From positions 1-37,015 of the forward strand of contig VBLC01000085.1 in the NCBI GenBank assembly GCA_005879315.1: a stretch of DNA of 37,015 nucleotides, in the 5' to 3' direction. This document shows, piece after piece, positions 8,658 to 29,958 of this stretch (the first letter of the stretch is position 1; each line of letters opens with the position of its first letter). The position numbers and the translations under genes are program-made. The DNA is from Deltaproteobacteria bacterium. Its GTDB lineage: Bacteria; Myxococcota; Myxococcia; Myxococcales; 40CM-4-68-19. Under the pieces are notes generated by a model that worked only from the letters and a program-made list of their open reading frames with translations, was not told the origin of the DNA and ran no database searches.

Positions 8658-10123
8658 TGGCCCCGGCCGCGGACAAGCGCTCCTTCGCGCAGGACTTCTT
8701 CTTCGAGCTGATGCGCGACTCCCAGCGGGTCCGCGCCGTCTATCTGGCCGAGCGGGAGCGCTGGATCCGCAGCCTGGAGATCAGCGGCCGGGAGGAAATC
8801 CTCTTCGAGCTGGAGATGCTCCTGCGCGGGATCGATCGCTTCTTCAACCTGCGCAACCTCTTCGGCGAGATCCAGCCGCCCCAGGACCGCGACTGGCGCG
8901 AGGAGCTGAAGGCCATGCGCGACGCGGTCCACCGCAGCGCGCATTTGAGCCGCAAGCTGATCGTCCAGCGGCAGGAGCAGGCGCTGATCTTCCGCAGCTT
9001 CGTCGAGGGATCCCTGTCCGACGATCGCGCCCGCGCGCGCCTCGGCGCGGAGCTGCGCGAGCAGCGCACGCCGGAGGAGAGCCTCTTCCTTCTCCGCGCG
9101 GGTCTGGTCGCGCACCAAGGGATCCTCGACCACCTGCTGCGCCTCGATGCGGCGCCGCTCTCGCTCTTCCTCGACGTGGGCCGCGCGCTGCAGCACGAGC
9201 TGTTCGTCTCGCGGTATTTCTGTCCGCCCTCGGCGCTCGAGTTCCGCACCGAGTACGACCGCGTCTCCTCGGTGCGGCTGCTCGAGGCGCTGCGCGGCAT
9301 GGCCGACGAGAAGCGGCGCAAGGCCTTCGCTCTCGGTCTGCTCGCCGCTTTCCGCTCGCTGCGCTCGTTGCGCTACGTCTCCGCGCCGCCCACGCCGCAC
9401 ACCAGGCGCGTCCTGGTGATCCTTTCGCTGGTGCGCAGCGAGCTGCAGGCGCTCATCGGCTACCTGGAGACCGACCTTCCGCGGCTCTGTGCGACCCCCG
9501 CGGGAGTGGGGACTGCAGCACAGGCGGGCCGCGCAGCAGCCGAACCGATCCGCAAGACGCTCGCCGACGTGCCGCCCATCCTCTCGCACCCGCTCACCGA
9601 CCGCGCGCAGCTCGACTTCCAGCGCGACAAGCTGGTGGCGGCGACCAAAGAGGCCATCGGCGCCATCGCCGAAACCCTCGACCCCGACCTGACCCGGTAC
9701 GAGCTGTTCGACGACGGGGGTGCGCGGGTCGAGCAGAGCGAGCGGCTGCGGCGCGATCTCTGGGTCTTCCGCGAGATGTGCCGCCACACCGCCCAGCGGC
9801 TGGAGGAGCCCGGAAGCAGTCCCGAGGCGGCCGAGCCGCTGCGCCGCTACGCCACCGAGTTCCGCGACGTGGGCTACCAGCTGTTGCGCCACTCCGACCG
9901 GGAGCTGTTCGACCGCTTCCTCGACCTGCTCGAGGGCTGGTCGGGCCGCCGCGGCGAGAGCACCGCCATCCGCATGCAGCGGCTGCGCGACGACTGCCGG
10001 CGGTTCGCCGAGATCCTCGACCGCGCGCTGGAGATGGTGGGCAAGCGCAGCGAGCTGAAAGGGCGCGAGATCGATCACGCCGACTGCGAGCAAACTCTTG
10101 CGAAGGTACTCCAGTCACGGTAA
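8657..10123 (+). CDS. Conserved-looking protein of unknown function at the end of the ruv operon
   Basis: The product is 488 aa, predicted soluble and mostly helical, and unusually rich in Arg, Leu and Glu. No signal peptide, membrane segment, nucleotide-binding motif or zinc motif could be recognised. It starts SFAQDFFFELMRDSQRVRAVYLAERERW and has long amphipathic helices such as LLRGIDRFFNLRNLFGEIQ and QRQEQALIFRSFVEGSL. Codon use (strong GC3) matches its neighbours, so it is a real gene. The start overlaps the ruvB stop by one base, a strong sign of co-translation. About 200 bp of regulatory DNA follows, so it is the last gene of the operon. Its role is unknown; a DNA-processing accessory or a scaffold would fit the context but is not supported by any motif. 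Confidence 0.8.
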   Translation: MAPAADKRSFAQDFFFELMRDSQRVRAVYLAERERWIRSLEISGREEILFELEMLLRGIDRFFNLRNLFGEIQPPQDRDWREELKAMRDAVHRSAHLSRKLIVQRQEQALIFRSFVEGSLSDDRARARLGAELREQRTPEESLFLLRAGLVAHQGILDHLLRLDAAPLSLFLDVGRALQHELFVSRYFCPPSALEFRTEYDRVSSVRLLEALRGMADEKRRKAFALGLLAAFRSLRSLRYVSAPPTPHTRRVLVILSLVRSELQALIGYLETDLPRLCATPAGVGTAAQAGRAAAEPIRKTLADVPPILSHPLTDRAQLDFQRDKLVAATKEAIGAIAETLDPDLTRYELFDDGGARVEQSERLRRDLWVFREMCRHTAQRLEEPGSSPEAAEPLRRYATEFRDVGYQLLRHSDRELFDRFLDLLEGWSGRRGESTAIRMQRLRDDCRRFAEILDRALEMVGKRSELKGREIDHADCEQTLAKVLQSR

Positions 10124-10143
10124 AGGCCGCTTAATCTTCACTC

Positions 10144-10157
10144 TGACAGAGGTGTCA
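10144..10157. promoter_or_regulatory. TGACA-N4-TGTCA inverted repeat upstream of lpxC
   Basis: TGACA (10144-10148) and TGTCA (10153-10157) form a 5-bp-arm palindrome in the 198-bp gap after the ruv operon. Its centre lies about 133 bp upstream of the transcription start predicted from the sigma-54-like element at 10258. This is a typical distance for an enhancer-binding-protein site. A GTGAC at 10172-10176 also mirrors the GTCAC at 10154-10158. Confidence 0.35.
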
Positions 10158-10257
10158 CACTCTCCAGGGAAGTGACCGGCGGCTGGACAGGTCGTCGAGC
10201 CAGGCGCTAGACGGAAGGGCAGGGAAGTACAACATTTTCTCGCTCCGGGGTGAGCCC

Positions 10258-10273
10258 CGGCACGGTTGTTGCT
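10258..10273 (+). promoter_or_regulatory. Candidate sigma-54 promoter of lpxC
   Basis: The sequence is CGGCACG, 4 bp, TTGCT; only the first base differs from the consensus TGGCACG-N4-TTGCW. The invariant GG (10259-10260) and GC (10271-10272) are 10 bp apart. The predicted start is near 10284, leaving a leader of about 38 nt before the ATG at 10322, which contains the ribosome site GGAGGA near 10303. Confidence 0.6.
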
Positions 10274-10321
10274 GCACCTTCGACGCTGCTGCCGCACCCA
10301 CCTGGAGGAGACCCGGCCAAG

Positions 10322-11251
10322 ATGGATCTTCATCCCTTCCGGCAGAGGACCTTCAAGCAGCGGGCCTCCCTCGGGGGCATCGGTCTTCACAGCGGCTCGC
10401 CGGTGCGGATGACGCTGGCGCCCGCCCCGGCAGACAGCGGCATCGTCTTCGCGCGCTCGGGCGTGGAGATCCCCGCGCTCGCCGAGTTCGTCGTCGACAC
10501 GAACATGAACACCTCGCTAGGCCGCGGACCGGTGCGCATCGGCACCGTCGAGCATCTGCTTGCGGCGCTGGTCGGCTGCGGCATCGACAACGCTCGCGTC
10601 GAGGTGGAGGGGCCGGAGATCCCCATCATGGACGGCAGCTCCGATCCCTTCGTGGCTCTCGTGCGCGAGGCCGGGATCCACGAGCTGCGCGCGGTGCGCC
10701 GCTTCTTGATGCTGCGCAAGCACGTCACGGTGGGCGAGGGCGACAAGCTGGCCAGGCTTTCGCCGGCGCGGGGCAAGTTCTCGGTGAGCTACACGGTCGA
10801 CTTCCAGCACCCGCTCATCTCCGATCAGAACTACAAGCTGGAGATGAACGACCGGTCGTTCCAGAAAGAGATCTGCCGCGCGCGCACCTTCGGGTTCAAG
10901 CGCGACGTGGAGCGGCTGCATCGCGCCGGCCTGGCCCGGGGCGGATCGCTGGAGAACGCGGTCGTGGTGGACGACTTCAACATCCTCAATCCAGAGGGGC
11001 TGCGCTTCCCCGACGAGTTCGTGCGGCACAAGATCCTCGACGCCATCGGAGACCTGGCGCTGCTGGGGATGCCGCTCATCGGCCACTTCACCGCGGTGAA
11101 GTCGGGGCACTCGCTCAATCACCAGCTGGTGCGCAAGGTGCTCGCCGAGCGCGACGCTTGCGAGGTCGTGCAGCCGCGCGCTGCGGACGAGCTGAACGAG
11201 ATGCAGGAGCGGCTCCTGCCGCTGCTGGCGCTCGAAGAGCAAGTGGCGTAG
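10322..11251 (+). CDS. lpxC: UDP-3-O-acyl-N-acetylglucosamine deacetylase LpxC
   Basis: LpxC catalyses the committed, zinc-dependent deacetylation step of lipid A synthesis in the cytoplasm. The 309-aa product shows the N-terminal GIGLHSG motif and the zinc-binding His in TVEHLLAALVG. IMDGSSDPFV follows. The second zinc site lies in VRHKILDAIGDLALLG (His and Asp), and the catalytic His in KSGHSLNHQLV. The ATG at 10322 has the family's N-terminus (RQRTFKQRASLGGIGLHSG) close behind; an in-frame start further upstream would add an unusual Pro-rich tail. Upstream is a sigma-54-like promoter with a possible distal activator site, which would be unusual control for an essential gene. Its stop directly abuts the stop of the convergent next gene. 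Confidence 0.96.
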   Translation: MDLHPFRQRTFKQRASLGGIGLHSGSPVRMTLAPAPADSGIVFARSGVEIPALAEFVVDTNMNTSLGRGPVRIGTVEHLLAALVGCGIDNARVEVEGPEIPIMDGSSDPFVALVREAGIHELRAVRRFLMLRKHVTVGEGDKLARLSPARGKFSVSYTVDFQHPLISDQNYKLEMNDRSFQKEICRARTFGFKRDVERLHRAGLARGGSLENAVVVDDFNILNPEGLRFPDEFVRHKILDAIGDLALLGMPLIGHFTAVKSGHSLNHQLVRKVLAERDACEVVQPRAADELNEMQERLLPLLALEEQVA

Positions 11252-11695
11252 TCAGCCCGCCTTCGGCGGCCGCGAGTTGGAGAGGCCCGCCTTGCGGTGC
11301 TCCTTCAACATGCACCGGTCCATGACGACGAAGAGGCCGGCCTTGCGCGCGCGCTCGGCCGCGGCTTCGTCGACGACCCCTTCCTGCATCCACACCGCCG
11401 GCAGCTTGAGCGCGATCGCTTCGTCGATGTGCCCGCCCACCTGCGTGGCGCGGCGGAAGTGATCGACGACGTCGATCTTGAAAGGAACCTCATGGAGGCG
11501 CTCGTAGACCTTCTCGCCGAGGATCTCCCCGCCGCCCGGACGCACCGGAACGATCTTGTAGCCGTTGTTCTGCAGGTACATCGCCACGCTGTAGGAAGGC
11601 CGATCCGGATCGCGGGAGAGCCCGACGACGGCGATGGTGCGGATGCGCAGGAGAAAGGCCTTGATTTCGTCAGGGCTGGGGTTCCGGAACGCCAC
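11252..11695 (-). CDS. CoA-binding protein (YccU-like, Rossmann fold)
   Basis: The product is 147 aa. The family signature is IAVVGLSRDPDRPSYSVAMYLQNNGYKIVPVRPGG, a Rossmann-type CoA-binding fold, followed by VDVVDHFRRA-type and PAVWMQEGVV motifs and the C-terminal VVMDRCMLKEHRK. The family is common and soluble; its physiological role is poorly defined. The start is GTG at 11695, with GGGAGG just upstream. It is convergent with lpxC, the two stop codons touching at 11251/11252 with no room for a terminator. It is divergent from the DsbA-like lipoprotein gene. Confidence 0.88.
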   Translation of the reverse strand: MAFRNPSPDEIKAFLLRIRTIAVVGLSRDPDRPSYSVAMYLQNNGYKIVPVRPGGGEILGEKVYERLHEVPFKIDVVDHFRRATQVGGHIDEAIALKLPAVWMQEGVVDEAAAERARKAGLFVVMDRCMLKEHRKAGLSNSRPPKAG

Positions 11696-28447: not shown

Positions 28448-28464
28448 AGCAACAGTCGTGCCAG
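28448..28464 (-). promoter_or_regulatory. Sigma-54 promoter of the gspC-N operon
   Basis: On the minus strand the sequence is CTGGCACG, 4 bp, TTGCT, a full match to the sigma-54 consensus TGGCACG-N4-TTGCW. The GG is at 28462-28461 and the GC at 28450-28449. The predicted transcription start is about 28437, only a few bases before the gspC ATG at 28434. An NtrC-type activator gene and a palindromic site lie just upstream, which strongly supports the call. Confidence 0.85.
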
Positions 28465-28482
28465 CAAGAATCTTCCGCGCGC

Positions 28483-28501
28483 CGAGGGCCTCGCGCCCTC
28501 G
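28483..28501. repeat. 7-bp inverted repeat between the palindrome and the gsp promoter
   Basis: CGAGGGC and GCCCTCG with a 5-nt loop form a perfect GC-rich stem between the activator site and the promoter. No T-run follows on the minus strand, so it is at best a weak terminator of the activator gene. It lies where DNA bending between activator and polymerase would occur. Confidence 0.4.
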
Positions 28502-28520
28502 CAGTGCGGGCGGGCGACAA

Positions 28521-28528
28521 GCTGACAA
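28521..28528. promoter_or_regulatory. Extra half-site GCTGACAA
   Basis: An exact copy of one arm (GCTGACAA) of the 17-bp palindrome, 24 bp closer to the gsp promoter. The opposite arm is not conserved. It may be a secondary binding site for the same activator. Confidence 0.4.
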
Positions 28529-28544
28529 GACCGGACGGCCCGCG

Positions 28545-28561
28545 GCTGACAATTTGTCAGC
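28545..28561. promoter_or_regulatory. 17-bp perfect palindrome, candidate activator binding site (UAS)
   Basis: GCTGACAA, one T, TTGTCAGC: 8-bp arms with a single central base. The centre (28553) lies about 116 bp upstream of the predicted sigma-54 start of gspC and 21 bp after the end of the NtrC-type activator gene. Position, symmetry and neighbouring gene match the upstream activator sites of sigma-54 enhancer-binding proteins. Confidence 0.7.
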
Positions 28562-28581: not shown

Positions 28582-29958
28582 TCATTCTTTTTCCCGATCG
28601 AGCTTGCGATAGATGGTGCGCGCCGCAATCCCGAGCAGCTGCGCGGCGAGGTTCTTGTCGCCCTTGGTCTGCCGCAGCGTCTCGCGGATGACGCGCAGCT
28701 CGATCTCCTCCATCGTCGTGCCGAGCGGGACCGTGAGCGTGCGCCCCTCGACGCCGCCGGCGAGCCCGGCCCCGCGCGGCCCGCCGCCGCTGCGCACCGA
28801 TTCCGGTAGATCGTCGATGTCGATCTCTGCCCCGCGCGAGAGAACGACGGCGCGCTCGATGGCATTCTCCAGCTCACGCACGTTGCCGGGCCAGGGATAG
28901 GTCTCGAGGGCCTCGAGAGCGCCGCGCGTCAGGCCGCGGATGGTCTTGCCGTTCTTGGCGGCATAGCGCGCCACGAAATGATCGGCGAGCAGCGGAATGT
29001 CCTCGACCCGATCGCGCAGCGGCGGCAGCGTCACCTGGATGACGTTCAGTCGATAGAAAAGATCCTCGCGGAACTCGCCTCCGCGCACGCGCGCGCCCAG
29101 GTCGGCGTTGGTGGCGGCGACCACGCGGCAATCGACCTTGACCGCGCCGCTGCCGCCCAGGTGCTCGATCTCTCCTTCCTGCAGGAAGCGGAGCAGCTTT
29201 ACCTGCACCGCAGCGGTCAGCTCGCCCACTTCGTCGAGAAAGAGAGTGCCGCCCTGCGCGCGCTCGATGCGGCCCTCCTTGCGCTGCACGGCTCCGGTGA
29301 AGGCGCCGCGCTCGTAGCCGAACAGCTCGCTCTCGAGAATGGTCTCGGGGATGGCCGCGCAGTTGATGGGGACGAAAGGGCCGGTAGCGCGCGAGGAATG
29401 CTCGTGCAGGGCGCGGGCGAACAACTCCTTTCCCGTACCGCTCTCGCCGAGCAGGAGCACTGTCGCGCTGGAGGGCGCCGCCTGGCGAATGACGTCGAGG
29501 GTTGCGCGCAGCGCCGGGCTCTGCCCGACGATGGGCTGCTCGGCTCCTGCCAGACGCGCGCGCAGCTGCTTGTTTTCCTGCAGCAGGCGGCGCTTCTCCA
29601 GCGCCTGCGCGACGCTCTTGAGCACGGCGTGGCGCTTGAGCGGCTTGGTGAGGAAATCGTAGGCTCCGTCCTTCATGGCCGCGACGGCCGCCTCGACGGT
29701 GCCGTAAGCGGTCATCAGCACCACCTCCGCCTCGGGCGCGACGGCCCGCACGGCGCGGAGCAGCTCCTGGCCGCTCATGCCCGGCATCATCAGATCCGTC
29801 ACGACGACGTCGACAGGCTCGGCGCGCAGCGTCTCGACCGCGGCCTGGCCGCTGGAGGCGAGCAGGACGCGGTACCCTTCGCGGGCGAAGATCCGCTCCA
29901 GCGAATCGAGATTCGCCTGCTCGTCGTCGACCAGAAGGACGGCGCCGGGCTCCGCCAT
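28582..29958 (-). CDS. NtrC-family sigma-54-dependent response regulator (enhancer-binding protein)
   Basis: The 458-aa product has three domains. A receiver domain covers 5-120 (VDDE, phospho-acceptor Asp55 in VVVTDLMMPGMSG, Lys105 in LTKPL). An AAA+ domain covers about 140-375 with Walker A GESGTGKE, an intact GAFTGA sigma-54 contact loop (218-223) and Walker B GGTLFLDEVGEL, followed by WPGNVRELENAIERAVVL. The C-terminal Fis-type helix-turn-helix reads NLAAQLLGIAARTIYRKL. It acts by looping DNA to a sigma-54 polymerase. It starts 9 bp after the ftsY stop and lies directly upstream of the gsp operon and its sigma-54 promoter, so it is probably the local activator. No cognate kinase gene is adjacent, so it is an orphan by position. 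Confidence 0.95.
   Translation of the reverse strand: MAEPGAVLLVDDEQANLDSLERIFAREGYRVLLASSGQAAVETLRAEPVDVVVTDLMMPGMSGQELLRAVRAVAPEAEVVLMTAYGTVEAAVAAMKDGAYDFLTKPLKRHAVLKSVAQALEKRRLLQENKQLRARLAGAEQPIVGQSPALRATLDVIRQAAPSSATVLLLGESGTGKELFARALHEHSSRATGPFVPINCAAIPETILESELFGYERGAFTGAVQRKEGRIERAQGGTLFLDEVGELTAAVQVKLLRFLQEGEIEHLGGSGAVKVDCRVVAATNADLGARVRGGEFREDLFYRLNVIQVTLPPLRDRVEDIPLLADHFVARYAAKNGKTIRGLTRGALEALETYPWPGNVRELENAIERAVVLSRGAEIDIDDLPESVRSGGGPRGAGLAGGVEGRTLTVPLGTTMEEIELRVIRETLRQTKGDKNLAAQLLGIAARTIYRKLDREKE

Follow-up and report, generated by a model that had tools for sequence, protein, structure and literature searches.

LpxC performs the first committed step in the synthesis of outer-membrane lipid A. 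The locus described here raises the question of whether a sigma-54 promoter under an enhancer-binding protein (bEBP) drives lpxC and, if so, which activator would be responsible and which other genes it would serve. The window, that is the whole stretch of DNA that was analysed, comprises 37,015 nucleotides.

Promoter elements upstream of lpxC and their conservation

In the window, lpxC lies at 10322–11251 on the forward strand and its 309-aa translation matches PF03331 with an E-value of 3e-107, while a profile search found a single copy of the gene in the 4.4-Mb genome. Two elements are present on the forward strand between the stop codon of the upstream ORF at 10123 and the lpxC ATG at 10322. 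One is a putative activator-site palindrome, TGACA-GAGG-TGTCA, at 10144–10157, recognised from its sequence and its order-level conservation. The other is a sigma-54 -24/-12 element, CGGCACG-GTTG-TTGCT, at 10258–10273, in which GG (10259–10260) and GC (10271–10272) stand 10 bp apart as in a sigma-54 promoter and which differs from TGGCACG-N4-TTGCW by one mismatch (11/12). Re-reading of the sequence confirmed the positions that the original prediction had given for the palindrome, the -24/-12 element and the start codon. According to sigma-54 promoter geometry, transcription would start at 10284 on the same strand, 12 bp past the -12 GC, and a GGAGGA ribosome-binding site follows at 10304–10309 (forward strand). 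Given that the downstream neighbour, a CoA-binding gene at 11252–11695, is convergent, lpxC is probably monocistronic. A consensus scan of 10050–10400, a weak method for high-GC genomes, displayed no sigma-70-like promoter or intrinsic terminator. A TGAAC-like block at 10165–10190, about 20 bp 3' of the palindrome, shows partial conservation among own-genus relatives and is possibly a second weak site. The genome also holds what a sigma-54 promoter needs, namely rpoN (contig C104) and 22 strong bEBP matches, and rpoN was found in 59 of the 60 relatives.

In order to compare the region across relatives, as the original prediction had proposed, we searched 60 order-level relatives for LpxC, read the DNA upstream of the gene and tallied 57 genomes from nine families. 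A sigma-54 element (at least 9/12) is found within 150 bp of the lpxC ATG in 54 of these 57 genomes and an exact GACA-N4-TGTC upstream of the gene in 44, or in 50 when up to one mismatch is allowed; the relatives behind these counts are not independent, the pattern nonetheless spanning families. The order consensus of the operator is ACCGCGACA-N4-TGTCGCGGT. Loss of GG or GC in close relatives, which had been named as refuting sigma-54 control, was not seen. In own-family alignments, conservation reaches 0.90 and 0.98 for the palindrome arms, 0.91 and 1.0 for the sigma-54 parts and 0.64 for the DNA between them. Outside the order, both elements are present at lpxC in 3 of 20 sampled genomes (G071, G089 and G080), with the palindrome in four more (G091, G074, G088 and G097) and a sigma-54 element in six more.

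Chance was assessed with dinucleotide shuffles of 57 distinct upstream regions at a sigma-54 threshold of 10/12. Indeed, 47 sigma-54 elements were observed versus 0.74 expected, 44 palindromes versus 0.18, and 40 regions with the two in order versus 0. When the 320-bp upstream region of the genome itself was shuffled 5000 times, a sigma-54 match of at least 11/12 appeared in 0.16%, GACA-N4-TGTC in 0.46% and both elements in order in none. The gap between operator and GG is 101–104 bp in the own genus and 114–162 bp elsewhere, a single gap of 191 bp (L055) being due to a wrongly picked sigma-54 match. At 101–162 bp 5' of GG, the conserved palindrome is placed as an enhancer site of a sigma-54 promoter would be. 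The distances display no helical phasing (20 distinct gaps, Rayleigh p ~0.33), which counts against the explanation that we favour.

Two other readings of the region bear on this evidence. If the palindrome were a repressor or otherwise unrelated site and the -24/-12 match incidental, the joint ordered conservation in the shuffle control would be left without a reason, as would the recurrence of the pair at other genes; we regard such a reading as highly unlikely. The idea that lpxC is transcribed mainly from a housekeeping promoter or by read-through, the sigma-54 promoter merely boosting its expression, deserves more weight, even if we lean against it. Housekeeping promoters of high-GC myxobacteria are poorly predicted, and two relatives (G030 and G015) retain lpxC without the module, but the intergenic region has no sigma-70-like match and the module is strongly conserved, although a second promoter would be compatible with both of these observations.

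The gsp operator and other genes behind the N4 module

The genome search for TGACA-N3/4-TGTCA suggested in the original prediction was run and gave just three occurrences in 4.4 Mb, two of them inside the window. A look-alike of the lpxC site with a different spacer, TGACA-N3-TGTCA, lies at 28547–28559, by the gsp (type II secretion) genes, where a sigma-54 element on the reverse strand (28448–28463, TGGCACGACTGTTGCT) matches the consensus perfectly. The adjoining gene at 28582–29958 on the reverse strand encodes an NtrC-type bEBP (receiver-AAA+-Fis HTH), which is probably the gsp activator. The promoter (28448–28559) and the bEBP gene form a unit conserved in relatives.

The original prediction combined sigma-54 and activator control of lpxC with the suggestion that the gsp activator may also act on lpxC. 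The former is strongly supported, both elements being conserved within the order as well as in further families of its phylum, while the latter is not supported. The half-sites TGACA and TGTCA are similar and both promoters fall within one window; however, GACA-N3-TGTC stands beside the orthologous gsp bEBP in seven relatives (G005, G009, G012, G014, G019, G038 and G054), and in G013 as GACA-AAA-TGTC. Exact lpxC operators have N4 throughout, whereas gsp operators have N3 in the relatives where they were found, so that the lpxC site, with its N4 spacer, does not belong to the gsp operators. Moreover, a one-base change of spacer alters both the spacing and the rotation of a Fis-type dimer site, and two relatives (G025 and G030) keep the DNA-binding domain of the gsp bEBP but have lost the lpxC palindrome. 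Given the spacers and these two genomes, the gsp and lpxC sites are different operators. The gsp activator, with its gene beside its own promoter, was hence rejected for lpxC, and it is most unlikely that it activates both.

A search of the 60 genomes for the N4 palindrome, a gap and a sigma-54 element returned about 100 places versus a handful in a reversed-pattern control, although some single matches may be due to chance. Besides lpxC, the module precedes genes for lipoproteins, for an MMPL/RND-like transporter and for a probable outer-membrane protein, as well as a 27-aa membrane peptide and an sRNA-like transcript, and this set suggests a function in the envelope. In family f4, conserved lipoprotein genes lie behind the module (L187–L192 and L206), and the MMPL/RND-like transporter is found at L193/L194. 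The membrane peptide, MSVLRTMSLIxGGALxALGGSAxALFL, occurs behind the module in the own genus and in a neighbouring genus. In the genome itself its locus, with N4 palindrome and sigma-54 element, is at C92:140761–140873 (L123:1462–1574), with homologues at L157, L160, L161, L163 and L202. Its ATG comes 12 nt after the sigma-54 element, so that the mRNA may be leaderless.

The sRNA-like transcript follows a sigma-54 element behind one or two N4 palindromes (L149, L171, L172, L175, L177, L178, L180–L184, L170 and L200). It has a terminator and two hairpins that are conserved, and in L184 it is repeated in tandem copies. In family f4 the palindrome is often doubled, at a distance of 45 bp, and f3 has a related transcript. 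No Rfam match was obtained in the tested loci, and identity with Pxr was discarded, as none of the loci searched contains the Pxr probe core.

Candidate activators

Among the bEBPs of the genome, the best candidate is a GAF-AAA+-Fis protein of 652 aa with a GAFTGA motif, encoded on contig C25 (C25:1337–3295, locus L080). An FHA-like fold at its N-terminus is uncertain, the FHA similarity being below the Pfam cut-off, and our literature search found no Myxococcus paper that brings together an enhancer-binding protein with FHA and GAF. It has no receiver domain, unlike a response-regulator activator of the DVU2934 type. The bEBPs were compared by joining the C-terminal domains of all 22 of them as one chimeric query. 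The DNA-binding domain of the C25 bEBP is the best-conserved match in most genomes across the order and ranks top or near top in the wider phylum, and its recognition helix, NRTKTAKDLGVDPRTIFRHLE, hardly varies within the order.

The module is also found directly behind the C25 bEBP gene, where its target is a lipoprotein gene. In six own-family genomes (the own genome, G001, G003, G005, G006 and G010) the N4 palindrome is at -5 from the bEBP stop and the sigma-54 element at +77; in G015 the latter is at +63, and G009 shows one mismatch. Since no GTG start overlaps in G001 and G010, the palindrome there cannot be put down to coding. No such site was seen at six loci of other bEBPs that served as controls. 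The C25 bEBP was not found in G025, G030, G048, G064, G079 and G082, all of which are without the lpxC palindrome, and G067, also without it, has only a weak match. Some observations count against this candidate: G032, an assembly 86% complete, has the lpxC palindrome yet no match to the C25 DNA-binding domain, G015 has the C25 bEBP but no module at lpxC, and no module was seen beside the C25 bEBP gene in the other order families examined, f5 excepted. On this balance of sequence evidence, the C25 bEBP is somewhat more probably than not the lpxC activator.

The same promoter and operator could be served by another core bEBP, such as the NtrC-type response regulator encoded on contig C113 (L083). 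Its phylogenetic profile is similar to that of the C25 bEBP, and the profile as sole discriminator was abandoned because it fails to separate the two. In a Syntrophaceae MAG (L014:1145–4829), lpxC is followed by genes for an NtrY-like histidine kinase and an NtrC-type bEBP. The C113 bEBP is the best full-length match of the genome (44%) to this EBP, two genes 3' of lpxC, and its architecture is closer to that of the Syntrophaceae EBP and of DVU2934, a response regulator (PMC3333781). However, four or five other EBPs come very close to this identity, and in the HTH the proteins match only weakly; likeness to the L014 EBP was set aside as a guide to the activator, several EBPs of the genome being tied at 42–44%. 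Furthermore, the C113 orthologues have no N4 site nearby in the loci examined, and the protein is absent from G020, which retains the N4 module at an sRNA-like locus. An activator of this kind seems unlikely, and the C25 bEBP is kept as the candidate in what follows.

Proposed control of lpxC and relation to known systems

We consider it likely that a sigma-54 promoter and a bEBP site drive lpxC as part of an N4 envelope regulon, with the C25 bEBP as the likeliest regulator. A bEBP would bind the GACA-N4-TGTC palindrome about 100 bp 5' of the -24/-12 element, reach the promoter via DNA looping and, by ATP-driven remodelling of the closed complex, lead to lpxC transcription. One regulator of the N4 operator would thus run an outer-membrane supply regulon made of lpxC, lipoproteins, a transporter, the membrane peptide and the sRNA-like transcript. 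Comparative genomics argues for this proposal through the presence of both elements, their order, the depth of their conservation and the module behind the C25 bEBP gene; the transcription start, the identity of the activator, its signal and the absence of another lpxC promoter are what we infer in addition.

Myxococcus xanthus cannot do without sigma-54 (Keseler and Kaiser 1997, cited in PMC2725144). By inference this species belongs to the same bacterial order as the source genome, and the citing passage gives the cause of the essentiality as not elucidated. The conserved sigma-54 promoter of lpxC could explain it. Should lpxC rely on sigma-54 and a single activator, the essentiality of M. 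xanthus rpoN would become directly testable, as supplying lpxC in a copy that does not need rpoN should then lift it partly or fully. Across much of the phylum, lipid A synthesis would be controlled at transcription by a signal-dependent activator, whereas enterobacteria control LpxC by proteolysis, and an envelope regulon would be marked out by an operator that can be recognised. More tentatively, the GAF-domain bEBP and sigma-54 may be the Myxococcota regulator of envelope supply (lpxC, lipoproteins, transporter, peptide and sRNA), comparable in its role to the sigma-E of enterobacteria, and the essentiality of sigma-54 in Myxococcus may stem chiefly from the dependence of lpxC on them; we put this forward as a possibility rather than an expectation.

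In E. coli, the bEBP GlrR/QseF acts with the sigma-54-dependent sRNAs GlmY/GlmZ. The likeness lies in a bEBP that is linked to both envelope precursors and sRNAs and has TGTC and GACA half-sites; in E. coli the half-sites are in the opposite orientation and separated by N10, whereas here they form GACA-N4-TGTC.

For lpxC itself, the novelty of sigma-54 control implied in the original prediction is only partial, the case of DVU2934 and a listing for Myxococcia being already known. A sigma-54 promoter has been predicted for Leptospira lpxC. A 2025 survey (PMC12316311) lists COG0774 (LpxC) as sigma-54-enriched in Myxococcia, so that sigma-54 promoters at lpxC are predicted there as here, but its listing comes without the activator site, activator, regulon or link to rpoN essentiality proposed here. 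The operator, the depth of its conservation, the envelope regulon and the candidate activator are new, as is a reason for rpoN essentiality that can be tested; the literature searched contained no mention of the operator, its conservation depth, the wider module or the candidate activator. The closest parallel is that of Desulfovibrio vulgaris, in which the sigma-54-dependent DVU2934 targets lpxC (DVU2917) directly, as shown by DAP-chip (PMC3333781; listed in PMC4641369). In both cases a sigma-54-dependent regulator acts at lpxC, in our case by prediction. However, DVU2934 is a response regulator whose operon also encodes a histidine kinase and an HD-GYP protein, whereas the candidate here is a GAF-domain bEBP. 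Furthermore, lpxC is the sole DAP-chip target of DVU2934, while the N4 operator would serve several genes, and the DVU2934 motif precedes lpxC in just two other Desulfovibrio, whereas the operator described here, in another phylum, spans an order and other families.
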